Below are positions 1-25,913 of a stretch of DNA of 64,000 bases, piece by piece. Numbering within the stretch: position 1 is the first letter of the stretch; each line of letters begins with the position of its first letter. The stretch is taken from assembly GCF_905475395.1 (NCBI RefSeq), contig NC_058337.1, positions 139,383,172 through 139,447,171 on the forward strand, read 5' to 3'. This stretch comes from Chrysoperla carnea. Taxonomy: Eukaryota; Arthropoda; Insecta; Neuroptera; Chrysopidae. The notes beneath the pieces are model-generated. The model saw only the letters and a program-made list of their open reading frames with translations. It ran no database searches and was not told where the DNA came from. The position numbers and the translations under genes were made by a program.

Positions 1-160
1 TACCTCTACACTAGGAATTCCATCATCCCCTACTACACTCTAGATTAGTAGTTTTGAAAGCAATTCCGAGGTTAAGCCCCGGGCTTTCACTTCCAACTAA
101 CTAAACCGCCTACGCACTCTTTACGCCCAGTAATTCCGAACAACGCTAGCCCCCTCCGTC

Positions 161-196
<36 letters not shown>

Positions 197-273
197 TTTC
201 TGCAAGTAACGTCATTATCTTCCTTGCTAAAAGAGCTTTACAACCCTAGGGCCTTCATCACTCACTCGATATT

Positions 274-325
<52 letters not shown>

Positions 326-326
326 G

Positions 327-383
<57 letters not shown>

Positions 384-653
384 AGATCGCAGGCTTGGTG
401 AGCTATTACCTCACCAACTACCTAATCTGACGCGGGCTCATCCATCAGCGATAAATCTTTCCTCCGTAGAGAATATACGGTATTAGCTTTTATTTCTAAA
501 AGTTATTCCGTACTGATGGGCAGATTCCCGCGTGTTACTCACCCGTCTGCCACTAACTAATTGGAGCAAGCCCTAATTAGTCCGTTTGACTTGCATGTGT
601 TAAGCATACCGATAGCGTTCGTTCTGAGCCAGGATCAAACTCTCAAGTTTGAT
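1..653 (-). rRNA. rrs: 16S ribosomal RNA, 5' part (partial, runs off window start)
   Basis: This is the first ~650 nt of a bacterial small-subunit rRNA on the minus strand. The complement of the universal 27F site lies at 625-644, the complement of the 338 site (ACTGCTGCCTCCCGTGGGAG) at 311-330 and the complement of the 518 site at 161-177, in the right order and spacing. Every adjacent protein gene is rickettsial in type, and Rickettsia is known to keep 16S apart from 23S-5S, so a rickettsial origin is inferred. The 5' end is placed a few bases beyond the 27F site; the exact end is uncertain. I saw no obvious damage in this part, but without an alignment small changes would be missed. In a eukaryotic chromosome it would be non-functional. 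Confidence 0.95.
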
Positions 654-2428: not shown

Positions 2429-4250
2429 CTAATTAATTACATTTATTTCATGACGTTTTACCTTGAGCTTAAGCTCATCAAGGTTAAACCTAATATCAAT
2501 CACAGCTCCACCTGTCTCTCTATTTGCAATATCTAAAACACCGCAATGTTCTTCGACTATTCTTTTAACGATAGCAAGCCCTACTCCTATACCTTTACTT
2601 CTAGTAGTTACATAGCTTTCAGTAGCTTTACCTATTAGCTCTGGTGGAAATCCTCTGCCGTTATCTAGGACTGTAATTTTAATAAATTGCTCACTTGCAT
2701 TTACATTAATTTTTATTGCTGCTTGATTGCTTCCCTCTAATGATTCTTCAGCATTTTTAAGTAAATTTATCATTACTTGATTTATTTGAGTAGTATCACA
2801 CGTAAAATTAAATTGATCGATATTAGTTTCAAAACTATATAAAATATTATCATTAAGTAATTTACGTGCTTCTACAATATTATTAATTACGTAAATCAAA
2901 TCACAATTGGTAAATTTAGGTGCAGGAAGACGAGCAAAAAGAACAAATTCAGACACAATATTTTTAATATCATTAGTATGGCGAATAATCATTTTTAAAT
3001 AATTCTCGAACTCTGCCCTTTCTTTAATTTCAGGACTAAATTTTTTAAGCAATCTTTCAAAAAAAAAAAGCAAGCAAAATAGGTGTTAACGGATTTTTTA
3101 TCTCATGTGCTACTTTTTTTGTTACATCCGACCAAGCTAATGCACGTTGTGCTATTACTAAATCCCTTTGCTGGCGTGAAAGCTGCTTAATCATTCTATT
3201 AAATGCAGCATAAAGCGTTCCTATTTCGTCTTTATCTACTTCATTCTCTGGAACTTGCACTGTTAGGTCCCCACTTTTTACTTTATCAGTTGCAATAACC
3301 AACTTCTTAATAGGATTTACTATCTTAGCAGTAACTATAACACCAAAACTTATCGCTATTAAAAGAAGTAGTAAGGCAATAAAGATAAAAATAATTGAAA
3401 ATTTTATTTGTATATTTCCTATTTGATTTTTAAGACGATGATACTCCGCTGCTGCTGCATTTATATGATCAATAATTTTATTATCAATTAACCTACCAAC
3501 TAATAAATATACATCATTATATTCTTTCAATTTTATCAGCATTCTTATTTTAGTTGGATCAGATTTTACTTCTACAGGCTCACAAGAATCTGCTTTTTTA
3601 ATTAAATGTGCAGTAAATGACAGGGAAAAACTTAAATAGCTATTAGCAATTATTGTATTAGTCGACTTATTTAACACTATTGCTTCATCAAGGGATCTCA
3701 TTTCTGCTTCGGTGTTTAATGTCTTAGTAAACAAAGCGGGGTTATGAATTAAATCATAATACATATCACTTAAATCTTCAGCAACAGCGAGTGCTGTTTC
3801 TCGTAATTGCAATTAATGCTCAGCAATATAAGAATCAGCAACCATTATAGATTGATCAAGTACCACAGAAATTTTTCGATCGAACCAAGCTTGAATACTA
3901 AGATTTAAAAAATAAGCAGAAGATATTGAAACGATTATAGTGGGAATAGCAGCAGCTAGACTAAATGCAACTACTATACGATTTTCTAACTTAGAAGTAT
4001 TTTGATCGCTATTTTTAAAGAAAAAACTTTGGCAAAATTTGCGAGTTAATAATATGCCAAGAACTAAGAAAATTATTAAATCAATTAATAAAAACCAAAT
4101 CACTTTACTAGAATTAACTGCACCATTTTTTGTGCCGATAGATATTGTGTAATAAGCGAAATAAGAGAAAATAATAGCTATTGCGACTAAAATACCTATA
4201 AATCTTTTACTATAGAGATATTTAAATAAAAATATTTTTAATTTCGGCAT
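2429..4250 (-). pseudogene. ntrY: NtrY-like membrane sensor histidine kinase, broken
   Basis: The three pieces together match an NtrY-type kinase of the usual ~600 aa. Piece 1 (4250-3813, 145 aa) has two or three N-terminal membrane helices and stops at an in-frame TAA (3813-3815). The frame resumes directly after it (3812-3057) with the periplasmic sensor, another membrane helix, a HAMP segment (IVNPIKKLVIATDKVKSGDL) and the H-box HEIKNPLTP. A run of A in the coding strand at about 3058-3069 then shifts the frame, and piece 3 (3073-2429) carries the N-box NLLKNAEES, the G1 box DNGRGFP and the G2 box GIGVGLAIV. In bacteria it would phosphorylate an NtrX-type regulator. One nonsense change plus one frameshift make it a pseudogene. 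Confidence 0.88.
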
Positions 4251-4523: not shown

Positions 4524-5754
4524 TTAATTAAATTCAAGCAGCATCTGACCTTTGACCACATTATCCTTTTCACTTACGAAAATTTTAGCTATTTTCCCGT
4601 CACGTTCGGCTAAAATGATATTTTCCATTTTCATAGCGGTTAAGATCATAATTTCCTGCCCTATTGTTACTTCTTGTCCTTCTTTCACTTTAATTGATGC
4701 AATTTGACCGTTAAGAGGAGCTTGCAGTTCAGAATTTTCTTCTGTTACTACTTTCGAAACCATTAACCCTTCAAGTTCTGAAATACGAGGAGAACGAACG
4801 AAGGCTTTTACGCTAATACCAGCATGTGATAGTAAATAACCAGTTCTGATATTTTCAATTTTAATATTTGTCTTTTTGCCATTAATTATGGCTACAAAAA
4901 GCTCATTACCTAAATTCCAGTTACTACGAATATATATTCGGTCACTTTCATGGCGTATATTATAGCCATTTTCAACAGGCGTAATTAGCACGGGGAATAA
5001 TTTATCGTCAATCGTTACCACCCATCTAGTACCGATTTTATTAGCTTGGTTATTGATATTTCCAGAAATTGAAGAGGCACGTCTTTGCTCAGATATATAA
5101 ATAAAAATAGCGGTTGCTAAAAATACTCCCGTTACTTCTGATGTTAGACTTGCACCGGAAAACCCATCTGGATATTCTTCTTGAATAAAGGCAGTAGAAA
5201 TATCACCGCTAACAAAACGAGGATGTAGCATTACTGCTTCTAAGAAGCTGATATTATGAGAAATACCATTAATAATGTAAGAACTTAAAACAGAACGCAT
5301 TACCTCAATTGCCTGCTCTCATGTTTCGCCGTAAGTACATAATTTTGCGATCATCGAATCGTAGAACATGCTAACTTCACCGCCAAGTCCAATGCCGGTA
5401 TCTATACGAATATTTGGGCTTTTTATAGGTTCAGAATACGCCGTAATCCTACCACTTGAAGGCAAGAAACCACGACTTGGATTTTCAGCACAAATTCGTG
5501 ACTCAAACGCCCAACCTTTTAACTTTACATCATCTTGTGTAAATGATAATTTTTTACCGGCAGCAATTTTTATCATTTCCTCAACGATATCTATACCAGT
5601 TATTAATTCAGTAACAGGGTGTTCTACCTGCAATCTCGTATTCATTTCTAAGAAATAGAAATTCTTCTCACTATCTACTATAAACTCAACAGTACCTGCT
5701 GAATAATATCCTACCTTTTTGGATAAAGATATTACTTGCCTATACATTTCTTGC
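4524..5754 (-). pseudogene. pccA: Propionyl/acetyl-CoA carboxylase biotin-containing subunit, 3' part
   Basis: C-terminal part of the biotin carboxylase/BCCP subunit. From 5754 down it encodes the rest of the ATP-grasp biotin carboxylase domain (YYSAGTVEFIVDSEKNFYFL, MNTRLQVEHPVTE), then meets an in-frame TGA at 5319-5321 (after YGET, before EQAIEVMRS), and continues in the same frame to the C-terminal biotinyl domain, whose acceptor motif AMKMEN is intact near the end (KGQMLLEFN, stop at 4524). In the bacterium PccA and PccB convert propionyl-CoA to methylmalonyl-CoA. The TGA fits a CGA-to-TGA change. The rest of the gene lies at 14664-15434, across the BEL retrotransposon. Confidence 0.93.
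5750..5754. repeat. Target-site duplication CTTGC (left)
   Basis: These five bases directly precede the left LTR (TGTTGGGG...) and recur at 14664-14668 right after the second LTR (...CCCTAACA). Removing the element and one copy restores a continuous pccA frame at the GCAAG of IRQ|EMYRQ. Five bases is the usual duplication for BEL/Pao integration. Confidence 0.93.
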
Positions 5755-6713
5755 TGTTGGGGCGTTGATCGCTGGTTCACAAAAAATAAAATATTTCCCA
5801 ACACTTAGCGATTTTAAGAATGTTTTCGAAATTTGGACTGTATGAAAAAAAATATGTACTCACCAGTTTTTTATGCAGGTTGATGGTAGAAGAATAAAAG
5901 TTGTTATTTAAAAGGTTTGATATGGATAAAATCAGGAAGAAGGGAATTTAGGGTAATTAATCAAACCTTTACGTTGAATTTGTGGTTTTTATTACTGTTG
6001 GTTATTGACTTTTGATTGCTGCGCCTTTCTTTATATGTCGAAGATTGCAAGGATAAACTTCCAGCCCGTGGGCCATTCGAGTAATATCGAATACGCGTAA
6101 AATCTCGATGGCGCGAAAAATATGTAAAATGTTTAATGCACTGCACTAAAACTATGGTTCACTGACAACTATTCGAATATGAATTCAAAATTAAACTTGA
6201 TTATCAAGATAAATATCGATTTCGAAATTAAACTTTAACACATTGTTAAATAGCAAATTTAAATGTAGAAAACCACGCGTTTCTACATTGAAAAACAAAA
6301 ACTTGAGATTGAAACTTTGAAAAGAAAACAGAATCACTGACTCGACAATGTTTAAATTACATTTAGATTGATTTAATTCAATCAATCGAAAGAAAAAAGA
6401 TCCATTTAGATCGAGAAACGAATTAATTATATTTTTAGATTGATTAATCAAATCAACCGAAAGAAATGATCCATTCAGATCAAGAAACGAATTAATTGTG
6501 TTAAAAAAAGTAAAGAGTTATAAACTCATTGGGTCGGCTCCGAAACCGACCCGTTTGAAAATACGTAAACAACTTATACAGCACACAGAATACTGTAATA
6601 GGAACGCTGTTATTGGCGGATGTTTTGACAACGTCAGTTGGTGCCAACTTAGTATTAATTGAAATCACTAAAGAAAAAAAATAAAAACAGTAACTTGTGA
6701 AATGTCCCTAACA
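5755..6713 (-). repeat. BEL element LTR (3' LTR in element orientation)
   Basis: 959 bp, beginning TGTTGGGG and ending CCCTAACA (short inverted termini). It matches 13709-14663 base for base in the stretches I compared, apart from a 4-bp difference (CAGCACACAG here, CAGCAG there, near 6578). Confidence 0.93.
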
Positions 6714-6914
6714 TAAGTCGCCCCCCCAAATTCGATAGAATTTGAGCCTACCTAAACAAAAAGGGAAAAATTCAGTTACATGGGACCGAACAAATTGAAA
6801 ATGTCAACAATGTACATGAAAGAAGAGAAAACAAAGAATATTTGAAATCTAACGGATAAAATATTTGAATTACAAAAAAAATGAATAAATGGGGGAGCGA
6901 AGGATGAAATGGGA
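6714..6914 (-). other. BEL 3' untranslated region with G-rich purine tract
   Basis: Lies between the pol stop and the 3' LTR. In element orientation a run of seven G (plus-strand C run at 6721-6727) sits about 7 bp before the LTR, the usual place for the polypurine tract that primes plus-strand synthesis, although here a few non-purines lie between it and the LTR. Confidence 0.5.
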
Positions 6915-9900
6915 TTACTCGATCGACCCACGCAGTGGAAGCAATCTGGCGACCGCCCGAGTAACTACTTGCTGATCCGCAAGTTTTAAATCGGCAACAC
7001 GAGGTATACCGTCTGCAGACATGTGAAGTCTGATTATACGACCAATAGGCCAAGAAAGTGGGGAAGTTTGATCCCCTTTTACTAATACGACATCCCCAAC
7101 CTCAGGGGTGGCGGCAGGCGATTTCCATTTGTTTCTTTGAATTAAAGTATTTAAATACTCTTTAGACCAACGCTTCCAAAAACTTTGAACCAAGCGTCGC
7201 AGGTTCAACCAACGGTCACGAACGGGCTGTTCACAAGGTGGGTAACGTTCGGGCAACGAGGTCAAGGGGGTGCCGGTAAGAAAGTGTCCAGGAGTTAAAT
7301 AAGACGATGCCTCAGAAGGATCAGCAGGCAGATCGCACAGTGGGCGACTGTTCAACACCGCTTCAATGCGGGCGAATATCGTGAAATAATCTTCAACGGA
7401 ATAGGAAGATTCCTTGAACATGCGTTTGAGGAGCGATTTAGCGGATTTGACGCCAGCTTCCCATAAACCCCCGAACCAAGGTGCATACGCACAGTTGAAA
7501 TGCCATTGTACACTTTTAAGAGACAAATAATCGGAGATATTCTCGCGATTTTCTTCTAAGAAAATAGAAATTTCATTTAAAAGGCGTGAGGCGCCAAGAA
7601 AATTCCGACCTTGATCGGAATATATGTCGGATGGAAGACTCCGACGAGCTACAAATCGATCCAGTGCTGCTAGAAAGCATTGAGTAGTGAGTTCTGAAGC
7701 GAACTCAAGATGAACACATTTTGTGGAAAAGCACACAAAAATGCAGAGATAACCTTTTGTTAAACGAGGTTTACGTGGGTTGCCGGATTTAACAACGAAA
7801 GGACCGGCGAAGTCGACTCCGGTATGAGAAAATGGTTTCGAGGGGGTGACTCGAGATTCGGGTAAAGCGGCCATTTGAGGCGCGAAGGGCACAGCACGGA
7901 ATCTGTAGCATGTGGGACAGTTACGGATCACTTTCCGAACAAGACCACGAAGCCCGGGAATCCAATAAAGAGCTTGAACAGAAGCTTGGACTGCTCTGGG
8001 CCCAGAATGAAGAGAACACAAATGAGCATGAACGCATATTAATTGGGAGATGTGTGCCACTTTGGGCAACAAAATGGGGTGCTTGGAAGCTGAAGAGAGT
8101 GGGGAGTGGTCGAGGCGACCACCCACTCTAATTATGGAAGAAGAATCTAAAAACGGACTGAGCGAGCTGAGACTGCCTTTAAGAGCTTTATGAGCGGATA
8201 ACAAATGAATTTCGGAGGAATAATAATGTTTCTGAGTTATATGAATGATTTTGATTTTCGCAAAATCTAATTCAGTGACGGACAACGGACCAGAAATGGG
8301 TTCTAGATGCTGTAGGCGTGCTTTACACTGTTTGATGAAACGAAGCATCCATGCGACTACTCGGATCAAACGCGTCCATGACGAAAAGCGAGAAAATAAT
8401 TCTAACATTTGATCCGGAGTAATTAAATTGGCTGCGAGAGCCAAGGGTTTAATTTCAGGCAGCTCAGCAATATTGGAAATTGTATCCGTAAAAGGAGGAG
8501 GCCACTGACTGAGAGGCTCCGAAATTAGCGATGGTCCGTGAAACCACAAGTTATGTTGAGTTGATTTGCAAAACTGATCAGGGGTCAGTCCGCGAGATGC
8601 GATATCAGCAGGGTTGACAGAAGTGTGAATGTAAGACCAGCACATTTGTTGAGTGGTTTGTTGAATGGCTACAACACGATTGGCAACGTAAACTTTGAGT
8701 AAATGTGGAGGAGTGTTGAGCCAATATAAAACGATGTGAGCATCGGTGAATAAACGTGGGGGAATTTTGAACAAATTCGGCATAGTTTGACGGACAGACG
8801 AGACGAGTTTGCTAAGCAGAAGTGCTCCGCAGAGTTCCAGGCGCGGTATGCTCAGGGTTTTCAATGGAGCTACCTTAGTTTTAGCAGCAAATAAATTGGA
8901 TGTTATTGCATATCCATCATCACAACAGAGATAAAGCACAGCTGCGTATCCAAGCTGACTAGCGTCAGAGAAACCGGCCAACCATACCGACCTACTTTCT
9001 GAAGGAGCAATAAAACGGGGAATGCGAATTTGAGCTACTAGATACATGTTTTGTTGATGGAGGTCCCAAATTTGACGAATATGTGGAGATACAGGGTCGT
9101 CCCACCCTGAGTGATCTAACCATAACTTTTGCAGAATACACTTCAAGCTAAAGGTAATAGGTGCTAAAAAACCCAAAGGATCATACACTCCTGCCACATG
9201 TGAAAGCAAAGTGCGTTTTGTCAAAACGTTTTCGAATGATTTAAATTGAAATAGAAAACTATCTGTGTTTGGGTCCCACAGCAGCCCAAGTATTTTGAAC
9301 ACAGTCTCCGTTTCGAACACAAATGGCGTCTCGATGTGATCTACAGGGAGATCAGCTAATATGGAAGGATCGTTGCTAGTCCATTTTCGCAACTCAAAAC
9401 CTCCCCTACTCATTAAAGTTTGTAATTGTGTCATTAAAGTTTTGGCTTGTTCAGGAGACGAAGCACCAGTAATAATATCATCAACGTAAGTGTTGTGCAG
9501 AAGGGCTTGAGAAGCCAAAGGATAATGATTGCCTTCGTCGATAACTAATTGTTTTAGGCACCTTTGTGCAAGAAAAGCGGAAGGAACTAAGCCGTATGTT
9601 ACGGTATTTAGTTCAAATTCAACGACGTCGGATTCAGTGGATGGTCGGTAAAATATATGCTGATAAATGCGATCTTCTGGACGTACCAAAATTTGTCGAT
9701 ACATTTGACGTATATCAGAACACAAGGCTATTGCGTTAAAACGGAATGAATAAAGGATATCCGAGATATCGTTTTGTAATTTAGGACCGGCCAACAATAA
9801 TGAATTTAAAGAAATTTTGTTATAACCTGGGTCCGATGCGTTAAAAACAACACGTAATTTGGTGGATGTACTAGTGTCCTTAGTGACACAATGATGGGGA

Positions 9901-10625
9901 ATTATATAACCTGATGAGTTAGTTGCCTTTGACATGTGACATAATGAAATGTATTCATCCATGAATTCGGTGTACGCCTTGTATTTTTCTGGAAATTTAG
10001 ACAATCTTTTTTCCAAATTAATAAAGGAAGCGAATGAACGCTCCTTGTTGAAAAGGGCAGGGAGGCTGCCCGGACGAAACGGAAGAGCGACAATGTATCG
10101 ACCCGTTGAGTCACGCGAATGCGTGTCTTTAAAATGGCGTTCCGCCAAAATATCTGAAGGATTTGAGGGGATGGAAACCGAAACTTCTTCAGTTTCCCAA
10201 AAATTTTGTAAGTGATCACTTATTTGAGCAGTGCTCAGGAGTGAAATGGGTTGAGTAGGGGGGTTGCCCTCAACAGGACCAATAATCAACCATCCAAAAA
10301 TACTGTTTATGGCGGAAGGGAATCCCTGAATATTTTGAGAATCCGTACATGACAATATAGAGGGGAACAAATCTGCCCCTATTAAGAAATCCACGGGGGA
10401 TGATTTATAAAATTGACTATCTGCCAATTTGAGTGACGTGAAGCGACTGATGACTTCTTGAGATAATTCAATTGAAGGTAAATTTAACGAAATAGTAGAC
10501 ATGACATAAGCAGTTGTAGAGACTTTTATGTCAGAATATTTTGACTTTAAAATACACGAAACCGTACCATGACAAGAGGTTTCGGTGGCGCCAATACCAG
10601 AAATTTGAGTTGAATTTACCTTCAA
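6915..10625 (-). CDS. pol: BEL/Pao Pol polyprotein (protease C-terminal part, reverse transcriptase, RNase H, integrase)
   Basis: An open frame of 1,236 aa. In order: the end of the DUF1758-like aspartic protease with its LIGADL motif (residues ~1-130); reverse transcriptase from about residue 200, with NASDPG..., the QMYRQI motif and the catalytic YVDDII near residue 380; RNase H-like region around FSDASQLGYAA and LFTDAH; an integrase zinc-binding HHCC (HAHLC...CPTC), and a DDE core with GVDFAGP, YSDQGRNFLGA and GGLWEAGVKSAK near residue 1050. It functions in cDNA synthesis and integration in the capsid-like particle. The start is artificial: the sequence STQI at its N-terminus also ends gag, so gag and pol were once one frame, now split by the block at 10626-11360. 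No internal stop. Confidence 0.93.
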   Translation of the reverse strand: MKVNSTQISGIGATETSCHGTVSCILKSKYSDIKVSTTAYVMSTISLNLPSIELSQEVISRFTSLKLADSQFYKSSPVDFLIGADLFPSILSCTDSQNIQGFPSAINSIFGWLIIGPVEGNPPTQPISLLSTAQISDHLQNFWETEEVSVSIPSNPSDILAERHFKDTHSRDSTGRYIVALPFRPGSLPALFNKERSFASFINLEKRLSKFPEKYKAYTEFMDEYISLCHMSKATNSSGYIIPHHCVTKDTSTSTKLRVVFNASDPGYNKISLNSLLLAGPKLQNDISDILYSFRFNAIALCSDIRQMYRQILVRPEDRIYQHIFYRPSTESDVVEFELNTVTYGLVPSAFLAQRCLKQLVIDEGNHYPLASQALLHNTYVDDIITGASSPEQAKTLMTQLQTLMSRGGFELRKWTSNDPSILADLPVDHIETPFVFETETVFKILGLLWDPNTDSFLFQFKSFENVLTKRTLLSHVAGVYDPLGFLAPITFSLKCILQKLWLDHSGWDDPVSPHIRQIWDLHQQNMYLVAQIRIPRFIAPSESRSVWLAGFSDASQLGYAAVLYLCCDDGYAITSNLFAAKTKVAPLKTLSIPRLELCGALLLSKLVSSVRQTMPNLFKIPPRLFTDAHIVLYWLNTPPHLLKVYVANRVVAIQQTTQQMCWSYIHTSVNPADIASRGLTPDQFCKSTQHNLWFHGPSLISEPLSQWPPPFTDTISNIAELPEIKPLALAANLITPDQMLELFSRFSSWTRLIRVVAWMLRFIKQCKARLQHLEPISGPLSVTELDFAKIKIIHITQKHYYSSEIHLLSAHKALKGSLSSLSPFLDSSSIIRVGGRLDHSPLSSASKHPILLPKVAHISQLICVHAHLCSLHSGPRAVQASVQALYWIPGLRGLVRKVIRNCPTCYRFRAVPFAPQMAALPESRVTPSKPFSHTGVDFAGPFVVKSGNPRKPRLTKGYLCIFVCFSTKCVHLEFASELTTQCFLAALDRFVARRSLPSDIYSDQGRNFLGASRLLNEISIFLEENRENISDYLSLKSVQWHFNCAYAPWFGGLWEAGVKSAKSLLKRMFKESSYSVEDYFTIFARIEAVLNSRPLCDLPADPSEASSYLTPGHFLTGTPLTSLPERYPPCEQPVRDRWLNLRRLVQSFWKRWSKEYLNTLIQRNKWKSPAATPEVGDVVLVKGDQTSPLSWPIGRIIRLHMSADGIPRVADLKLADQQVVTRAVARLLPLRGSIE

Positions 10626-10812
10626 TTGAATTATCTCAAGAAGTCATCAGTCGCTTCACGTCACTCAAATTGGCAGATAGTCAATTTTATAAATCATCCC
10701 CCGTGGATTTCTTAATAGGGGCAGATTTGTTCCCCTCTATATTGTCATGTACGGATTCTCAAAATATTCAGGGATTCCCTTCCGCCATAAACAGTATTTT
10801 TGGATGGTTGAT
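10285..10812. repeat. 200-bp inverted duplication at the 5' end of pol
   Basis: Arm A is 10285-10484, part of pol on the minus strand. Arm B is 10613-10812, the same sequence on the plus strand (encoding the same peptide, e.g. LPSIELSQEVISRF and SPVDFLIGADLF). A 128-bp spacer separates them. The arms are identical as far as I compared. Arm B ends in GGATGGTTG, where an unrelated primer-binding site and LTR follow. Confidence 0.85.
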
Positions 10813-10817
10813 GGTTG

Positions 10818-10835
10818 ATCCGGCTCGAAGGACCA
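10818..10835 (-). promoter_or_regulatory. Primer-binding site of a second, nested BEL LTR
   Basis: On the minus strand it reads TGGTCCTTCGAGCCGGAT, four bases (TTTT) after the LTR-type terminus ...CCCCAACA. It is complementary to a tRNA 3' end finishing in CCA. It differs from the PBS of the main element (13687-13704), so it comes from a different BEL lineage. The LTR-derived block ends exactly here. Confidence 0.7.
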
Positions 10836-10839
10836 AAAA

Positions 10840-11360
10840 TGTTGGGGCGATGGTCGCTGGTTTAAGAAAAACTAAATTATTTCCCAACAATTAGCGAATT
10901 TTAAGAACGTTTGAGAGCTATTGGACTGTATGAAAAAAAAATATATGTACTCACCGGTTTTTTCTCCAGGTTGACACTAGTTAAATATTTAAAGGTTTGA
11001 TCGGATAAACTCAGGAGAAAGGAATTTGGGATGATTTATCAAACCTTTACGTTGAATTTGTTCACGTTTTGCTACTGGCTTGGTTATTGACTTTTAATTG
11101 ATGCACCTTTATTTATATGGCAAATTGCACGGGTAAGCTTCCAACACGTGGGCCACTCGATTAATATCGAATATTGCTTAAATCACCTCAATGGCGCGAA
11201 AAGTAGAAAATTCTAGGTTCACTACACTAAATCACATAATTCACTGGGAATCGAACTTGAATCCAAAATTAAACTTGATTATCAAGATAAAATTCGATTC
11301 GAAAAACTTTAACACATTGTTAAATTGAAATTAAAATATTGAAGACCATGCGCTTCAACA
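10840..11360 (-). repeat. Partial, diverged BEL LTR lodged between gag and pol
   Basis: Begins TGTTGGGGCGATGGTCGCTGG and parallels the left half of the main LTRs with many substitutions and indels (shared blocks include TTTCCCAACA, GGACTGTATGAAAAAAA, CTTTACGTTGAATTTG). It stops near 11360 at a stretch TTTGAGTTGAA that also occurs in the gag-pol coding sequence at 10607-10617. Only ~520 of ~955 bp are present. Confidence 0.8.
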
Positions 11361-12929
11361 TTAAATTTGAGTTGAAGTGGGTTTAATAGGTAAACCAAGA
11401 GCACGACAACATGATAATGAAATAATTGACACTTGGGAGCCAGGGTCCACAAGTGCCCGAACAGAAAAATAATTACCACTGGGGGTATTAATTAAAATTT
11501 GAGCTGTGCCCAGTAAGACCCCTTGTGGGTTTTGGGCATATGAAGTACATGACAGCGCCGGGATGTCGTTGCCGGTGCTGTGAGGGGGTTGAGTGATTGA
11601 GTTTGAGGGAGACGCATTCAAGTCCGAAACGGTGGCTTTGGTTGCCGACGTGACCGATGATTGAAACCCAGGATGAAGGGTAGTGTGATGTTGATTAGAA
11701 TCACACTTGCGACATACATTTTTAGAAGCACATTGGCTTCGAAGATGAGAACCTAAACAATTGAAGCAACGAGTAAGTGATTTTAAATATTGATATTTAT
11801 TCGATAATTCCATTTTTAAAAATGAAGGACAAGCTGCGAGATTGTGAGGGCCTCTGCAGCGAATACACTTTGAAATTGAGTTTTGTTTAAATGAAGAAAT
11901 TTTGTTAATATTGTGAGCGGTGTTTACTAAAAATGATTTGGGTTTATTTGCTTTTGGAAACGTTGAGCTACTAGGGCGAGTAGCGGGTAATTGCAACTCT
12001 AATGAGCGAAGCTGATTAGTAACAAATGTGATTAAATCCGTGTATGACGGAATCTCCTTGTCTGAATGACGTAATTCAAATTCACGGCGCATATTAGTGT
12101 CCAGATTATTTAGTGTTAAGTTAAAAAAAATGAAATCAATTAAATCTGGTAAATCCATAGAGCGAATAGATTTTACTGCAGTTTCATGAGTGGTGAGAAA
12201 TGAATTTAAATTATTTAAATTAGATAAATGAGTTGTCTTGAACTCTAAAATTTTTTGTAAATAAAAACTAGCTATGCGCCTTTTATTGTTGTAGCGAAAA
12301 CGTAATGCTTCGTATGCTAATGGGTAGTTTTCGCTAGATAAAGCAAACCCGGAAATCACAGCTGCTGCATCCCCTTTCAACGAGGTTTTAAGATATCGAA
12401 ATTTACAAATGTTGTCCATGTGTTTTGAATGGACAAGGCTGTCAAATATGGAAATAAATTCCAACCAGGAATCTATCTCGCCATTGAATTGGGGTAAATT
12501 GATACGAGCTAAACTGTTATCCTGATGAAGAGGCCTGACTGAATCAACCGATGTTGAATCAGAAACCCTGTCTGGCATTAACGCCTTCATTTTGTGGTAA
12601 TGCAGCTTGATTGAAAATGTCAACTGATCGTAAGCTATTTGAGCTGAAACTGTTTCGATTCGCTTACGTTTTTCTACGGCAGAATTAAATTTCAAAATAT
12701 CACTTTGAATCATTTTATGATTTTCAATAAAGGATGGCAATTCTTTACATAATAATTCACACTGTAAAAAATCGGCTTGTGCAAGACCCCTTACAGTGTC
12801 ATAAATTGCGTTTACTTGCGCAAAGGCATTTTCACGATGAAGGACTAGGTTTTCCTTCACTGCTTCCATGTTTTCTCCATATTGGAGTAAGCTGTCAATA
12901 ACTTGTGCCATACTTGAATGAAAATGCAA
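11361..12929 (-). CDS. gag: BEL/Pao Gag polyprotein with start of protease
   Basis: 522 aa. The N-terminal ~130 residues look helical. Next comes a DUF1759-like gag region with LPQFNGEIDSWLEFISIFDS (residues ~146-165) and FRYLKTSLKGDAA. Two or three zinc-knuckle-like clusters follow (CIRCRGPHNLAAC around residue 355, CFNCLGSHLRSQC around 388, CRKCDSNQHHTTLH around 407), then the beginning of an aspartic protease, ALVDPGSQVSII near residue 490, in which D of VDPGS is the catalytic residue. The frame ends at STQI* because of the nested LTR block; the same frame would originally have run on into pol. Gag packages the RNA. ATG 12929 gives MHFHSS; ATG 12911 (MAQVID) is an equally good start. Confidence 0.9.
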   Translation of the reverse strand: MHFHSSMAQVIDSLLQYGENMEAVKENLVLHRENAFAQVNAIYDTVRGLAQADFLQCELLCKELPSFIENHKMIQSDILKFNSAVEKRKRIETVSAQIAYDQLTFSIKLHYHKMKALMPDRVSDSTSVDSVRPLHQDNSLARINLPQFNGEIDSWLEFISIFDSLVHSKHMDNICKFRYLKTSLKGDAAAVISGFALSSENYPLAYEALRFRYNNKRRIASFYLQKILEFKTTHLSNLNNLNSFLTTHETAVKSIRSMDLPDLIDFIFFNLTLNNLDTNMRREFELRHSDKEIPSYTDLITFVTNQLRSLELQLPATRPSSSTFPKANKPKSFLVNTAHNINKISSFKQNSISKCIRCRGPHNLAACPSFLKMELSNKYQYLKSLTRCFNCLGSHLRSQCASKNVCRKCDSNQHHTTLHPGFQSSVTSATKATVSDLNASPSNSITQPPHSTGNDIPALSCTSYAQNPQGVLLGTAQILINTPSGNYFSVRALVDPGSQVSIISLSCCRALGLPIKPTSTQI

Positions 12930-13686
12930 ATAAAATTGAAAATAATATTAATTGATGAAGGATTGATAAAACAATCAAATGACTTTAACTAATTGAAATA
13001 CTATTGATAAGCGATACGTTGATGATTTCAATCGAGTTACAGAACCACTGAAATTAAATTTGTTTGAAATCAAAAGAAAATTTTTTAATAAATTAAAGCG
13101 AATCAGCATAAGCTACCCGGGCACTCAGTATTATATATGAAAATCAATGAATAATGAATTTATTTGATACCCAAGAATAAACAATTTAAACTTTTTAGAA
13201 TACAAGTGAATTCAAATAAAAGTATGAAATTAATTAATTTAAAAAAAATGCAATCAAAGTCAATAACCAGAAATTGAAACTAATTAAATCAATTGAGTAT
13301 TAAATAATATTGAATTAATACGAAATTTTAATCAAATGCGATTTAATTAAAAGAATTTTAAATTTTTTCAGAAAAATTGAAATTAACAATTAAAGTCAAA
13401 AAAAGTAAATTATTTACATTTACTTTTGAAATGTCATTTAATAAATTTTGACAATTGAAAAATACAATCAATGTAAATATTATGATTTGTGATTTGAACA
13501 AAAAAATAGTCAATAGTGACATCTATTTTATGAAAAGAGTAGTTTTATTATTTGTCAAATTTGAAATATCAAAATGACGTCGAATATTGTTTTTCAAAGA
13601 AGCATGAACTATTACGTAATTTGTTTGTCAAGAACAAGAACACGAAAAAACACGTGATTATTTGAATTGTATGAAAAAAACGTATA
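12930..13686 (-). other. BEL untranslated leader
   Basis: Non-coding AT-rich leader between the primer-binding site and gag. No other gene is seen. Confidence 0.7.
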
Positions 13687-13704
13687 TTTGGCTTGAAGTG
13701 ACCA
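13687..13704 (-). promoter_or_regulatory. BEL primer-binding site
   Basis: On the minus strand, TGGTCACTTCAAGCCAAA begins four bases (TTTT) after the 5' LTR, starting with TGG as expected for pairing with a tRNA CCA end. The tRNA species is not assigned. Confidence 0.7.
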
Positions 13705-13708
13705 AAAA

Positions 13709-14663
13709 TGTTGGGGCGTTGATCGCTGGTTCACAAAAAATAAAATATTTCCCAACACTTAGCGATTTTAAGAATGTTTTCGAAATTTGGACTGTATGAA
13801 AAAAAATATGTACTCACCAGTTTTTTATGCAGGTTGATGGTAGAAGAATAAAAGTTGTTATTTAAAAGGTTTGATATGGATAAAATCAGGAAGAAGGGAA
13901 TTTAGGGTAATTAATCAAACCTTTACGTTGAATTTGTGGTTTTTATTACTGTTGGTTATTGACTTTTGATTGCTGCGCCTTTCTTTATATGTCGAAGATT
14001 GCAAGGATAAACTTCCAGCCCGTGGGCCATTCGAGTAATATCGAATACGCGTAAAATCTCGATGGCGCGAAAAATATGTAAAATGTTTAATGCACTGCAC
14101 TAAAACTATGGTTCACTGACAACTATTCGAATATGAATTCAAAATTAAACTTGATTATCAAGATAAATATCGATTTCGAAATTAAACTTTAACACATTGT
14201 TAAATAGCAAATTTAAATGTAGAAAACCACGCGTTTCTACATTGAAAAACAAAAACTTGAGATTGAAACTTTGAAAAGAAAACAGAATCACTGACTCGAC
14301 AATGTTTAAATTACATTTAGATTGATTTAATTCAATCAATCGAAAGAAAAAAGATCCATTTAGATCGAGAAACGAATTAATTATATTTTTAGATTGATTA
14401 ATCAAATCAACCGAAAGAAATGATCCATTCAGATCAAGAAACGAATTAATTGTGTTAAAAAAAGTAAAGAGTTATAAACTCATTGGGTCGGCTCCGAAAC
14501 CGACCCGTTTGAAAATACGTAAACAACTTATACAGCAGAATACTGTAATAGGAACGCTGTTATTGGCGGATGTTTTGACAACGTCAGTTGGTGCCAACTT
14601 AGTATTAATTGAAATCACTAAAGAAAAAAAATAAAAACAGTAACTTGTGAAATGTCCCTAACA
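13709..14663 (-). repeat. BEL element LTR (5' LTR in element orientation)
   Basis: 955 bp, same termini as 5755-6713. It holds the element's own promoter on the minus strand. The following CTTGC (14664-14668) is the right target-site duplicate. Confidence 0.93.
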
Positions 14664-15434
14664 CTTGCCTTATTTCTTCGGTAATGAATGAGCTTGGTGC
14701 CTCTTCAATTACTTTTTGATGGTGACGCTGTATTGAACACTCACGTTCCCCAAGACATACGCTATTGCCATACTGATAAGCAAGCAATTGAATTTCGATA
14801 TGACGAGGTCTTTGGATCAATTTTTCAATAAACAACCTATCATCACTAAAACTATTACCGGCTTCAAGCTTTGCAGATTCAAAAGCATTTGCCATTTCAG
14901 TAGGGTTATTTGCCACTCTCATACCACGCCCGCCACCACCGGCAGCCGCTTTTACAATGACCGGAAAACCTATTTCTTTTGCAATATCTATTGCTTGCTT
15001 AACATCATTTATAGTTCCCATATAGCCAGGAACAGTACTAACTCCTGCTTCTATTGCTATCTTTTTTGCTTCAATTTTATCGCCCATTTTCTTTATAGTA
15101 GCAGCATTAGGACCTATTAAAACTACTCCCTCTCTTTTAAGAACATTGGCAAAATTAGGGTTTTCAGATAAAAAGCCATAGCCAGGATGTACGGCATTTG
15201 CACCGCTTTCACGAATTGCCGAAACAAGATTTTTAATAGATAGATAGCTTTCGGTTGCCGGTGAATCACCTATATAATAAGCTTCATCTGCATGCTGAAC
15301 ATACATTGAGTTTGTATCGGCTTCAGAATATACAGCAACCGACCCTATCCCCATTTTTTTAAAGTACGGATTATTCTAACAGCAATTTCGCTACGATTAG
15401 CGATTAAAATTTTATCAAATAAAGGTTTAGTCAT
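14664..15434 (-). pseudogene. pccA: Propionyl/acetyl-CoA carboxylase biotin-containing subunit, 5' part
   Basis: N-terminal part of PccA. It starts at ATG 15434 (MTKPLFDKILIANRSEIAVR, the biotin carboxylase signature), but an A run on the coding strand (15354-15360, seven A where eight keep the frame) shifts the frame after RTLKK. From 15354 the correct frame continues: GSVAVYSEAD, VHPGYGFLSEN, GFPVIVKAAAGGGGRGMR (ATP-binding glycine loop), CLGERECSIQRHHQKVIEEAPS, ending at EEIRQ where the retrotransposon begins. With 4524-5754 it makes ~665 codons, normal for PccA. In all, the gene carries a frameshift, an 8.9-kb insertion and a nonsense codon. It lies downstream of pccB, as in a pccB-pccA operon. 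Confidence 0.93.
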
Positions 15435-15665: not shown

Positions 15666-16990
15666 CTATAACGGCAAATTATCATGCTTCTTCCAAGGCA
15701 ATTCCACCTTTTTAGTACGTAAGAAATTCAGGGCTTTACATATTCGCCATCTTGTATTTTGTGGTCTTATTATATCATCTAAATAGCCTCTAGATGCTGC
15801 AACAAAAGTCGATGTCACTACTTTTTTATATTCATCGATTTTTTGTTTTTTAGCCTCCAGATCTTTGCATTCTTGCCTAAATATTATTTCAGCTGTTCCC
15901 TCTGCCCCCATCACTGCAATTTCGGAATTAAACCAAGCATAATTTATGTCACCTCTAAGATGCTTAGAGTTCATCACTATATAAGCTCCGCCGTAAGCTT
16001 TACGAGTAATCACGGTAATTTTCGGCACTGTTGCTTCAGCATAAGCATATAAAAGTTTAGCACCATGCTTAATAATACCATCATGCTCTTGAGAAGTACC
16101 TGGCAAGAATCCCGGTACGTCAACAAGACTTACTATAGGAATATTGAAAGCATCACAAAATCTAATGAATCTTGCTGCTTTTCTTGAAGCATTAATATCT
16201 AAACATCCCGCTAAATGCAATGGTTGATTTGCAACAAATCCTACCGGATAACCTTCCATATAGCCAAAACCAATTATGATATTCTTAGCAAAATCCGGTT
16301 GTAATTCAAAAAACTCTCCTTCATCTACAATACGTTCGACAAGCTCCTTCATATCATAAGGTTTATTGGGAGTATTAGGGATTAGAGTACTTAGAGACAT
16401 ATCAACCCTATCAGCAGGGTCAACAGTAGGACGAATAGGAAGAGGACTACGGTTAGATGATGGCAGAAAATTAAAGAACCTACGAATTTCTAGTAATACT
16501 TCTATGTCATTATTAAATGCAAGATCAGCCACACCGCTTTTGGTAGTGTGCATACGTGCACCGCCGAGCTTCTCTTGGCTTACTTCCTCACCAGTAACGG
16601 TTTTTACTACATCAGGACCGGTTACAAACATATAGGAACTATTTTTAACCATAAATATAAAATCGGTTAAAGCAGGCGAATAAACAGCACCGCCCGCACA
16701 AGGACCCATAATTAAGGTAATCTGAGGAATAACACCTGATGCTAAAACATTACGCTGGAATAGCTCACCATATCCAGCAAGAGCATCCACACCCTCTTGA
16801 ATTCTTGCACCACCTGAATCATTAATGCCGATTACGGGAGCACCAGTTGCTATAGCTTGATCTAGAATATCGCAGATCTTTTTAGCATGATACTCACCAA
16901 GTGAACCGCCAAGCACTGTAAAATCTTGGCTATAAATAAAAACTAATCTACCATTTATTGTGCCATGACCAGTTACAACACCATCACGGA
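15666..16990 (-). pseudogene. pccB: Propionyl-CoA carboxylase carboxyltransferase subunit, lacking its N-terminus
   Basis: An open frame encodes the carboxyltransferase subunit from [22 protein letters not shown] to the stop. It keeps the two crotonase-fold halves: [50 protein letters not shown] (oxyanion glycines) in the first, and [20 protein letters not shown] and [13 protein letters not shown] in the second. The usual length is about 510 aa; ~420 codons remain. At about 16990 the reading gives way to plus-strand transposase sequence, so the first ~80-90 codons are gone. The GTG at 16914-16916 sits inside a conserved segment and is not a true start. This break probably predates the transfer. 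Confidence 0.9.
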
Positions 16991-21915: not shown

Positions 21916-21972
21916 TAATACCCCTGTCCAACTTGCGAATATATTAATAATCTTTGATTACACTAATTAAAA

Positions 21973-24965
21973 ATGCAAACTGAATTTATACATTTAAGAA
22001 CACAAAGTTCCTATTCTTTCTTAGCAAGTGCATTAACTACCGAAAAAATAGTAGAGCTTGCCTCTTCTTATAAAATGCCTGCTATTTGCTTAACAGATAA
22101 AGAGAATTTATTTGGATCGCTAGAGTTTGCTTTATATGCAATAAAGAAAGGTTTGCAGCCTATTCATGGGGTTATTTTAAATATACAATATGAAGCAAAC
22201 GTTTTTGCAGAAATATTATTGATAGCTAAAGATGAAACTGGCTATAAAAATTTGCTTAAACTATCCAGTATCACCTTTACTACAAATGATCGTAAAATAT
22301 GCAACCATATTACTTTTGAGGATTTAAAAGAATATCAAGAGGGATTAATAGCATTATGTTGTTACACTGAGGGTATTATAGGGAAATGCTTGCTTGCTAA
22401 TAAAGAAGAACAAGCTGAAATGTTTGCACGAAACTTGCAAGAAATTTTTGGAGATTGTTTTTACTTTGAAATCATGCGACACGATCTACCGGAAGAGCAG
22501 CATATTGAAGATAATTATATTAAAATAGCATCAAAATTAAATATTCCGCTTGTTGCTACCAATAAAGTACTATTCAGCAAAAAAAGCATGCATGATGCAC
22601 ATGATGTATTATTATGTATTTCTGCCGGTGTTACTAAAGAATATCCTGATCGTAAAACAGTGAATTTTCTGGTTATTTTTTGATCGTATCGGACTTTATA
22701 AAATGGAGTAAAAATCAAGGTATTTTAGTAGGACCAGGCAGAGGTTCAGGAGCAGGATCAGTTGTTGCTTGGAGCTTGCTTATTACTGATCTTGACCCTA
22801 TTAAATTTGGCCTATTATTTGAAAGATTTTTGAATCCAGATCGTATTTCAATACCTGACTTTGATATTGATTTTTGTCAGGAAAGACGAGAAGAAGTTAT
22901 TAATTATGTACGTTCTAAATATGGTAATAATAGAGTAGGACAAATTATAACTTTCGGTAAAATGCAGGCAAAGGCTGTAATTAAGGATGTTGCACGAGTA
23001 CTAAGCTTACCATATAAATTTGCAGATTATCTAACTGAATTAGTGCCGTTTAGTGCAATAAACCCCGTTACGCTTGAGCAGGCAATACGAGAAGTGCCGG
23101 AACTTGCAAATGCTGCTAAAGGTAACGGATTATATAATTTAGAGGGTGAGCTAGAATTAATTAAGCTAGTACTTGATACCTCATTAATTCTTGAAGGGCT
23201 GCATCGCCACTCCTCAACGCATGCAGCAGGAATCGTAATAGCTGGCACTGATTTAGTTGATATAGTACCTATCTATAAAGATGCTAACTCCGATATATTG
23301 GTAGTCGGCTACTCCATGAAATATTGCGAGCTTGCTGGTTTAATTAAGTTCGACTTTCTTGGGCTGCAAACTTTAACTGTTATTACCGATTGTAAGAAAT
23401 TGTTAAAAGAGCAAAATATAGAAATAGATTTTAACGATATGACATTTGATGATGAAAAAACTTATCAAATGTTATGTAAAGGTAAAGGAGTCGGCGTATT
23501 CGAGTTTGAAAGTGTTGGGATGAAAGATGCACTTAGACGCCTTAAACCTGATTCCATACATGACTTAACAGCTCTTGGTGCGTTATATCGCCCTGGACCT
23601 ATGGAAAATATTCCAACCTATATAGCTTGTAAGCATAAATTACAGCAGCCTGATTATTTGCATAAGTTGTTAAAGCCTATCTTAGAGGAAACTTATGGAG
23701 TAGTGATATATCAAGAACAAGTCCAAAGAATTGCTCAAGTTTTAGCTGGTTATACGCTAGGAGCTGCTGATTTGCTTCGTAGAGCCATGGGTAAGAAAAT
23801 TAAATCTGAGATGGAACAACAAGAAGAAATTTTTGTTAAAGGTGCAATAGCTAATAATATTTCTAAGGCTCAAGCTAAATCTATTTTCGCCACTGTCGCT
23901 AAATTTGCTGGTTATGGTTTTAACAAGGCACATCCCGCAGCTTACGGGGTTATTTCATATCAAACAGCATATCTTAAAGCTAATTATCCAGCAGAATTCG
24001 TAGTTGCATGCTTAAATCTTGAACTAAATAATCGCGATAAAATTAATTTATTCCTGCAAGAAGCAAAAGATAATAATATAAAAATCATTGCACCGAATAT
24101 TAATATTTCTGATGGATATTTTAGTGTAAAGTCTGTCATACCGCGGCTTGACCTCGGTATCCATGGAGACCAATTAAAAGACACCGCGGTCAAGCCGCGG
24201 TATGACATTGATAGTTCTATAATCTTCGCACTTGGAGCTATAAAAGGAGTCACGCCGAATTTTGGTAAGCTAGTAACAGATGAAAGAAATGCAAGAGGTG
24301 CTTTTAAATCGATTGTTGATTTTATTGAGAGATTACCACCAAAAGCTATCAACAGTAAATTACTTGAAAATCTAATTAAAGCTGGCTGTTTTGATGAATT
24401 ACATGATAATAGATTGCAATTATTTTGAAGCATTTCTAAGCTTCTTGCATATTCGGTTTCTTATCATGAAGAGCAGGCATCTAATCAATTTAGTTTAATT
24501 AAAGTCTCTAGCTTAAGCAAAGAAATATTAGTTTCAAGTGATTACGCTGATAAAAATACTTTAGCTTTTTATGAATTTGAGGCCATGGGGCTATTTATCT
24601 CAAATCATCCGCTAACAGAATACAAAGAAATATTCAATCGCTTAAATATCTTAAGCTCTGCTGACTTACATAATAATTTGCCTGATGGCAGTAATAGAGT
24701 TATGATTGCTGGTGTAATACAAAAGAAAGATTCTCGTATGTCAGCAAGAGGTAGATTTATTACCCTAGTGCTTTCTGATCCTGAAAATATATTTGAGTTA
24801 AGTATTTTTAGCGAAGAAGTTTTAAAAGATTACGTACATCTACTTGACGTTAAAAGTTTAGTAGTTGTTAATTGTGATATCATTAAAGATGAAGGCGGTA
24901 TTAAGATAACTGCTAAAAGCTTTTCATCAATTGAAAATGCAACTGGCAATCAGCAATTTGATTTA
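21973..24965 (+). pseudogene. dnaE: DNA polymerase III alpha subunit, broken
   Basis: The replicative polymerase subunit in damaged form. Piece 1 (21973-22661) is the N-terminal PHP domain ([20 protein letters not shown]...). After DRKTVN the sequence jumps to [17 protein letters not shown], skipping roughly 110-130 codons by comparison with the family and changing frame. Piece 2 (to 24425) keeps the polymerase core: [11 protein letters not shown] and the catalytic aspartates in IPDFDIDFC, then the fingers. TGA at 24426-24428 interrupts LQLF*SISKLL; the frame continues to [20 protein letters not shown], where host repeat DNA begins and supplies the stop (24969-24971). The OB-fold is cut and the C-terminal end lost. 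A palindromic element is inserted in frame. Because dnaE is essential, this cannot be a working bacterial copy. Confidence 0.94.
24134..24207. repeat. Rickettsia palindromic element inserted in frame in dnaE
   Basis: Perfect 20-bp arms at 24134-24153 (TGTCATACCGCGGCTTGACC) and 24188-24207, with a 34-bp loop. The coding frame runs through, adding ~25 residues ([15 protein letters not shown]...) to DnaE. In-frame palindromic elements in protein genes are a known oddity of Rickettsia, which supports the assignment of the donor. Confidence 0.9.
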
Positions 24966-25913
24966 CAGTGAAGCAAAAAAAAGATGAAAAAAAGAAGATA
25001 ACCCATAAGGGGTTATAAGAAAATTAAAATATGAATATCAAAATTAAGATTAAGATTTACAGAAGTTACAAAGTTAAGAAAAGATTTAGAGTACGAGTTA
25101 AAAGTGTGCAAGGGCCCACCCATACAGTTTCCGGGATAATTGTACTATTTAAAGCCACCCTGATATTTAAACTGACAGGTCCAGAGGTTTTTAGATCAGA
25201 ACTGGATGAAATGTTTGATGTTCAAGTAAGGGCTTCATTTCTTTACCTTTCCAAAATTTACCGCATGGATTTAAATTTCACACCTACAAAACAAAATGTC
25301 AGAAGGAAAGAGTTAAAAAACAATATCAAAGATAATATAAACTTGAGAGATATTTTATGTAATTCATGATCAATTACAAAATTGGTACAGTATCCTAAAT
25401 TTAACACATTAAGTTTTACTAAAAACAAATACTAGTAGGTATTTAATAAATACACAAATCTAAAGTTTTTACAAATGGAGATAAATAAATTCTAAGTCAT
25501 GTTAACCTAGGATTTTAAATAAACTTATATCAAAGTTTAAAAAAATGGATGCATTATAAAATTAAAAACCCAAAAACCCTTCAAGCTATCTCAAAAATTC
25601 CATAATAATAATAATTCGTCAATACATACCAGATAATTTAATAGAAATTCACTGTTTTTACATGTTAATTTTAAGTATGCCGCATGCTAATAATTTAAAT
25701 TGTATTTTAATAAATAGGATCCATTACTTTTTACATTGACGATGCTTGCTGCTCGGTGGATCAAGTCGAAGAGACCATCTTCTCATACTTCAAGCAGTAG
25801 CTTAGTAAATTAATTCGCGCATCAATCATTGCGCATAAGAAAGTAGTTCAATTATTTTATATAATCTATTTGTTCGTAATTTATGTACTTTAACTGACAT
25901 AAATTACGGAACA
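24966..25913 (+). repeat. Host dispersed repeat, copy 1, starting at the bacterial junction
   Basis: Begins around AGTGAAGCAAAAAAAA directly after the dnaE fragment and ends at ...ATTACGGAACA. It matches 30612-31584 along its length, with substitutions and small indels: GGGCCCACCCATACAG, AAGCCACCCTGATATTTAAA, GACAGGTCCAGAGG, ATTCGCGCATCAATCATTGC. The right end forms a hairpin (CGTAATTTATGT/ACATAAATTACG, 25875-25910). No convincing protein is encoded. The family is unknown to me. The bacterial/host boundary is at 24965 give or take a few bases. Confidence 0.85.

Follow-up and report, generated by a model that had tools for sequence, protein, structure and literature searches.

In Drosophila ananassae, the available text on the Wolbachia insert of chromosome 4 (nuclear Wolbachia transfer, nuwt) describes "numerous host retrotransposons", owing to which the exact location of the insert was unidentifiable from sequence (PMC4299567). 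In Curculio weevils, the consulted part of a 2026 preprint reads Rickettsia genes as ancestral, present on every chromosome and lying, for 93–97%, within Mavericks (PMC13419823). Here, we analyzed a stretch of 64,000 nucleotides (the window) from chromosome 1 of the green lacewing Chrysoperla carnea (GCF_905475395.1, NC_058337.1, positions 139,383,172–139,447,171), in which a BEL/Pao long terminal repeat (LTR) retrotransposon interrupts a rickettsial pccA gene. The locus resembles the D. ananassae nuwt in being a large symbiont insert with host retrotransposons in an insect chromosome, as far as the cited text describes that insert (PMC4299567), and, with the same limit, it resembles the weevil case in bringing Rickettsia DNA and Mavericks together in insect chromosomes (PMC13419823). 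As read from the sequence, it is very probable that Rickettsia DNA became nuclear in C. carnea chromosome 1, and that it later decayed and was entered by host BEL/Pao, LINE (long interspersed nuclear element)-like and Maverick elements.

The BEL/Pao element occupies positions 5755–14663 of the window on the minus strand. Both LTRs are direct and have TG...CA ends, and their alignment (959 vs 955 bp) shows no mismatch in 955 aligned bases and one 4-bp gap. An earlier note on this DNA had described near-identical LTRs with one 4-bp indel, a CTTGC beside each of them and a pccA that reads in frame over the empty site. Our results confirmed these observations: no substitution separates the LTRs, CTTGC lies directly at both outer ends (Table 1), and joining the flanks without the element gives the minus-strand in-frame reading EEIRQEMYRQVISLSKK. 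The interrupted gene is rickettsial pccA, as the note had named it. Its 3′ half carries Biotin_carb_C, PCC_BT and Biotin_lipoyl domains and its 5′ half the domains given in Table 1, and both halves are 97–98% identical at the nucleotide level to Rickettsia sp. MEAM1, which we take to be placed near R. bellii.

The earlier note had also proposed a comparison of the empty site with Rickettsia genomes. We scanned one genome per species with the pccA 5′ half and kept 80 loci (174 relatives); the empty-site test covered the first 17 of them (L023–L039), all titled Rickettsia. All 17 align across an uninterrupted pccA site with 76–98% identity, the alignment of L037 having 6 gap positions. In Rickettsia L024, the two flank alignments overlap by precisely five bases, which are the duplicated CTTGC; the corresponding pentamer of MEAM1 is CCTGC. 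BEL/Pao target-site duplications are typically 4–6 bp long. For a preset pair of ends, a 5-bp match of whatever sequence has a computed chance probability of about 1.4 × 10−3, and a chance duplication is ruled out because CTTGC stands exactly where two identical LTRs end and the site is empty in 17/17 Rickettsia loci.

For such a duplication to form, the integrase must have made its staggered cut in a pccA that was still unoccupied, so the bacterial DNA was in place first; its pccA target would then have been nuclear when the element arrived. The order given by the earlier note, rickettsial transfer first and BEL/Pao retrotransposition second and recent, is thus supported, the sequence of events by the duplication in pccA together with the empty site in Rickettsia and the recency by the absence of substitutions between the LTRs. 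Insect mutation rates are 2.8–5 × 10−9. At these rates, 0 substitutions in 955 aligned sites put the 95% upper bound on the age of the insertion at about 3–6 × 10^5 generations. This bounds the age of the BEL/Pao insertion but gives no date for the transfer. Dating the transfer by substitutions failed, as they did not separate changes made before it from those made after it.

The assignment to BEL/Pao, already made in the earlier note, was borne out by Pfam domains, with E values of 3.5e-44 for Peptidase_A17 (PF05380, the Pao peptidase), 1.6e-7 for RVT_1, 1.6e-8 for Integrase_H2C2 and 1.5e-27 for DUF5641; a Pfam scan of the BEL/Pao open reading frames (ORFs) listed no rve integrase core at E 1e-3. 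It is this domain content, the TG...CA LTRs and the 5-bp duplication that the element shares with BEL/Pao retrotransposons. The 5′ LTR is followed by TTTTTGGTCACTT and the 3′ LTR preceded by GGGGGGGCGACTTA, a candidate primer-binding site and a candidate polypurine tract, respectively. A single unbroken gag-pol frame was not found in the pccA-borne copy: the frame common to the gag-region and pol ORFs contains 16 stops at 10646–11363, the first of which terminates the gag-region ORF. These stops are due to two sequences lodged between gag and pol, an LTR piece from another subfamily and an inverted duplicate, and an intact element was therefore rejected. The defect does not remove the copy from the BEL/Pao family. 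Template switching during reverse transcription would have produced such a chimeric, defective copy.

We then compared the element with its relatives in the lacewing genome. Our genome-wide searches covered 559.49 Mb, against 560.25 Mb for the assembly in the accessible text of its publication (PMC10116181). Of 108 candidates obtained with the LTR as query, 40 matches were scored, including the two LTRs of the window itself. The nearest copies elsewhere are 96–97% identical over LTR bases 1–682, while the last ~277 bases are unaligned in 5 of the 6 sibling loci compared and ~70% identical in the sixth; this divergent LTR end sets the pccA-borne copy apart from these six siblings. Sibling LTRs are 916–917 bp long, and the distance between LTR starts in the window copy exceeds that of the C5 and C6 pairs by ~0.7 kb, the additional length containing the LTR piece of the other subfamily and the inverted duplicate. 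The C6 pair has no mismatch and sits in an AT repeat, where a target duplication is uninformative; the C5 pair has 1 mismatch of 917 and is flanked by the 5-bp duplication ACTAG. Since sibling LTR pairs are identical or nearly so, the family appears to have been recently active.

BEL/Pao is not the only host element in this DNA: at least two further eukaryotic transposable elements lie in the rickettsial sequence. An 18.5-kb LINE-like block (chromosome 1, 139,303,282–139,321,813) interrupts MEAM1 at 47,462–47,468. Two minus-strand matches lie within it: RVT_1 towards the left and, close to the right end, an endonuclease-reverse-transcriptase that falls slightly short of the curated cut-off (25.9 vs 27.4 bits). 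The block starts with an ATT-rich tract and has GTCAATTATT and GTCAAATTATT at its two sides, GTCAATTATT occurring once in MEAM1. It would fit a LINE with a nested Maverick-type element. The nested 575-aa polymerase ORF gave no Pfam match and was judged by eye: a sample further left starts with identical residues and matches DNA_pol_B_2. Large inverted and direct repeats were also seen in the block.

The second is a Maverick-type element of 11.9 kb (139,349,344–139,361,214) with 617-bp inverted ends (97%) and ATGAGA on both sides. It encodes an rve integrase and a double-jelly-roll capsid, plus a chromodomain match below the cut-off (21.5 vs 25.1 bits), and lies between bacterial-type ORFs, with PF04754 to its left and DUF772 to its right. 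The corresponding place in MEAM1 differs over ~1 kb, so that, unlike for the LINE-like block, the comparison does not show an exact empty site for this element. The inverted ends have 13 mismatches in 617 aligned columns, which were not used as a clock. Further left, 5 of 10 ORFs from samples at 139.08–139.27 Mb matched Pfam (Pox_A32 twice, DNA_pol_B_2, RVT_1 and IS200). Features gained only in a eukaryotic nucleus, namely BEL/Pao, LINE-like and Maverick insertions, are thus present in the rickettsial DNA.

The bacterial DNA is continuous with the host chromosome. The junction, which the earlier note had put near 24,965, was placed exactly at 24,968/24,969 by the end of dnaE similarity to MEAM1. 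It lies ~0.57 Mb, and the right edge of the window ~0.53 Mb, from the end of chromosome 1. No N occurs in the 204 kb at 139,283,172–139,487,171, and hence no assembly gap at the junction. The assembly inChrCarn1.1, in the accessible part of its description, combines PacBio long reads at 40-fold coverage with scaffolding by Hi-C; its contig N50 is 67.8 Mb and its chromosome 1 measures 139.98 Mb (PMC10116181).

Collinearity was examined by comparing these 204 kb with MEAM1 28–67, 71.5–91.5, 89–110 and 841–846.5 kb (pieces of at least 150 bp, >88% identity), MEAM1 66–71.9 kb being added separately. Over 107 kb (139,293,252–139,400,158), order and orientation are those of MEAM1 37.7–102.1 kb at ~95% identity overall. 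The pieces are 93–98% identical, apart from one at 88.5%, and one repeat matches two places; ~45.7 kb of the span matches MEAM1 and the remainder is inserted or unmatched. All 46 genome matches to the bacterial transposase PF00872 (Transposase_mut; 50/50 candidates scored) fall on chromosome 1 at 138,278,437–139,401,777. They mark a 1.12-Mb interval, and the window is the right edge of a larger Rickettsia island. At 138.85 Mb, a stretch of 6 kb aligns over its whole length with MEAM1 965–971 kb at 96% identity. A 16S search (5 of 2048 candidates scored, 6 matches) gave 1191 bits for the copy at the left edge of the window and 357 for the next.

The bacterial genes of the island have decayed. 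We surveyed 46 MEAM1 ORFs of at least 150 aa from the stretches fetched, leaving aside ORFs cut at stretch ends and shorter overlapping ORFs. Matches at >80% identity were obtained for 33, of which 8 seem to be intact, whereas the remaining 25 are broken, truncated or partial; the other 13 had no match in the island, some of them lying outside the collinear span. In the window, pccA, pccB and an NtrY-type kinase are all broken or truncated. By comparison, among 16 free Rickettsia loci, pccA is covered to at least 0.98 in one piece in all 16, pccB is in one piece in 15 and absent in L036, and the kinase is whole or nearly so (at least 0.94) in 10 loci, while in 4 it runs off the end of the locus and 2 lack it.

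Table 1. Coordinates of the features discussed (positions in the 64,000-nucleotide window; dot, no strand)
Feature	Position	Strand	Remark
Target-site duplication CTTGC, left copy	5750..5754	.	Overlap in Rickettsia L024 empty site exactly 5 bp
BEL/Pao LTR, 959 bp, 3′ LTR in the sense of the element	5755..6713	minus	
pol ORF, 1236 aa	6915..10625	minus	RVT_1, Peptidase_A17, Integrase_H2C2, DUF5641
213-bp inverted duplicate of 10276–10488, 98%	10609..10821	.	Part of the rearrangement inside the element
LTR piece from another BEL subfamily, between gag and pol	10840..11365	.	At most 93–94% to C5 copies, 79% to own LTRs
gag-region ORF, 522 aa	11361..12929	minus	DUF1759
BEL/Pao LTR, 955 bp, 5′ LTR in the sense of the element	13709..14663	minus	
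Target-site duplication CTTGC, right copy	14664..14668	.	
Rickettsial pccA, 3′ part	4524..5754	minus	Premature stop between ORFs 4524–5300 and 5319–5804; stop absent from L023 and L024
Rickettsial pccA, 5′ part	14664..15354	minus	Biotin_carb_N, CPSase_L_D2
pccB remnant, 416-aa ORF	15666..16916	minus	Best piece spans 85% of MEAM1 pccB
NtrY-type sensor kinase, three ORFs	2429..4250	minus	NtrY_N, HAMP, HATPase_c; broken vs MEAM1 95575–97404
Rickettsial 16S rRNA, 5′ part	1..650	minus	Extends left beyond the window, C1:139382497–139383821
dnaE remnant	21960..24968	plus	~314 bp internal loss vs MEAM1; ends ~205 bp short of the MEAM1 gene end
Bacterial/host junction, right edge of the island	24968..24969	.	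dnaE similarity to MEAM1 stops; MEAM1 dnaE runs ~205 bp further

Other sequences of the window were noted alongside these genes. Next to pccB, inside a MEAM1-matching stretch, 15500–15651 matches the Rfam family WsnRNA46 (Wolbachia small RNA) with 67.7 bits (gathering 65.3). An ankyrin-repeat ORF of 612 aa (18610–20448) lies between bacterial transposase and integrase remnants and had no match in the MEAM1 stretches compared. The island holds several IS200-type copies (Y1_Tnp), at 1611–2202 and in L013, L016, L017 and L018, which are 96–98% alike and were presumably carried over from the bacterium. In the host part, Copia-type elements lie at 46718–51955 and 59936–63638, the first of which has RVT_2, integrase and gag domains in one ORF of 1745 aa.

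Several results weigh against the reading of this DNA as a transferred and decayed island. At least 3 of the 25 disrupted ORFs are of repeat type and matched in part (coverage 0.25–0.35), an in-frame pccA stop occurs in free Rickettsia L026 as well, and the breakage control spans three genes only (pccA, pccB and the NtrY-type kinase). When pccA/pccB changes are polarised by R. rhipicephali as outgroup, 45 fall on the window branch, 35 of them in third codon positions (p ~1e-9 vs one third). Synonymous/nonsynonymous counts are 35/10 on the window branch and 41/6 on the MEAM1 branch, an excess of nonsynonymous changes in the window that does not reach significance (Fisher p 0.28). Taking L024 as the outgroup instead gives counts of 47/13 and 36/5. 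Because of the third-position bias and the nonsignificant difference, most of the divergence from MEAM1 appears to have arisen in the bacterium, before the transfer, which would therefore be young relative to the MEAM1 split. The argument for decay thus rests on the broken genes and not on the substitution pattern. As to extent, 20 samples of MEAM1 were fetched, 10 were dropped for matching repeats, and nine 180-base pieces were joined into one query. Two of the nine were found, both inside the island, and seven had no genome match, misses that are weak evidence with such a short joined probe. A large share of the bacterial chromosome may be absent from the genome, or may have escaped the probe, and for this reason a whole-chromosome transfer is not claimed. 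Between 138.28 and 139.28 Mb, the sequence read consisted of twenty samples of 1 kb and the stretch of 6 kb, so that the smaller part of the 1.12-Mb interval was covered. Finally, MEAM1 order is broken at the right edge by the dnaE piece, with a jump from 102 kb to 841–844 kb, so that a rearrangement or more than one event is possible.

Several transfers, or one transfer followed by rearrangement, may thus have built the island, an explanation that is compatible with the BEL/Pao claim and that we consider possible, if on the doubtful side. Besides the leap at the right edge, it would account for the blocks of MEAM1 630 and 970 kb found 0.5–0.9 Mb left of the window. However, 64 kb of MEAM1 order are kept in a single orientation, the 46/46 transposase matches fall in one interval, and MEAM1 has ~30 copies of one repeat, so that its gene order may differ from that of the donor.

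An assembly chimera, in which symbiont contigs were wrongly joined to lacewing contigs and no transfer took place, is very improbable. Symbiont reads could occur, since the accessible text of a survey reports living Rickettsia in 25–94% of C. carnea depending on the population (PMC7762206). Nevertheless, a false join cannot produce a target duplication with an exact pccA empty site, nor the LINE-like and Maverick insertions; the 204 kb contain no N, the genes are mostly broken and the transposase marker is confined to one 1.12-Mb interval. Misassembly was rejected on these grounds. Least credible of all is an integration of BEL/Pao into the chromosome of a living Rickettsia, later transferred or assembled in its modified form: retrotransposon particles do form in host cells, in which Rickettsia resides, but no bacterial chromosome is known to us to carry a BEL/Pao insertion, the site is empty in 17/17 Rickettsia loci, and three element types in one stretch fit nuclear residence better.

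We therefore favor a nuclear transfer followed by decay and insertion. A green-lacewing Rickettsia would have donated a large piece of its chromosome to C. carnea chromosome 1, one event probably bringing most of the island DNA. Such a donor is at hand, since the living Rickettsia found in C. carnea belong to the R. bellii clade according to the consulted part of the survey (PMC7762206). The bacterial genes would then have decayed as unselected, presumably neutral, nuclear DNA. A BEL/Pao integrase would have made a 5-bp staggered cut in pccA, leaving CTTGC on both sides, while a LINE-like element and a Maverick would have landed elsewhere in the same DNA; the 1.12-Mb spread of the island markers may partly be due to later insertions. 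More tentatively, and with some doubt, much of one Rickettsia chromosome, and perhaps the greater part of it, might have entered chromosome 1 in a single recent event, three classes of host elements then colonising it. If true, this would be a datable natural experiment on foreign DNA as a landing pad for transposable elements. The island may still be polymorphic in C. carnea populations.

For this reference insect genome, the nucleotides by themselves would settle rickettsial DNA as nuclear rather than contamination, with the order of events fixed. There is also a practical side. Because 16S lies in the island, nuclear copies could mislead DNA-based Rickettsia screens of C. carnea, which the available text presents as an insect used commercially in biocontrol (PMC10116181). 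As described in the consulted part of the survey, a gltA assay was negative in a Rickettsia-free control; therefore, gltA is absent from the island, or the primer sites differ, or that lineage is without the island (PMC7762206). A partial search of the open-licence literature found no report of a Rickettsia insert in Chrysoperla.

Host retrotransposons in symbiont inserts are already known, and what the lacewing case adds is an unusually clear order of events. The partners differ from those of the D. ananassae nuwt, Rickettsia and a lacewing here, Wolbachia and a fly there; in contrast to that insert, as the cited text describes it, a chromosome-scale contig gives one lacewing insertion site, together with its empty site, at single-base resolution (PMC4299567). 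Unlike in the Curculio weevils, as far as the consulted part of the preprint describes them, the lacewing has one collinear island into which Maverick, LINE-like and BEL/Pao elements were inserted afterwards (PMC13419823). The lacewing elements would have arrived after the bacterial DNA, and the island offers an apparently young, collinear case for testing the link that the same preprint, in its consulted part, draws between bacterial DNA invasion and bursts of transposable elements (PMC13419823).

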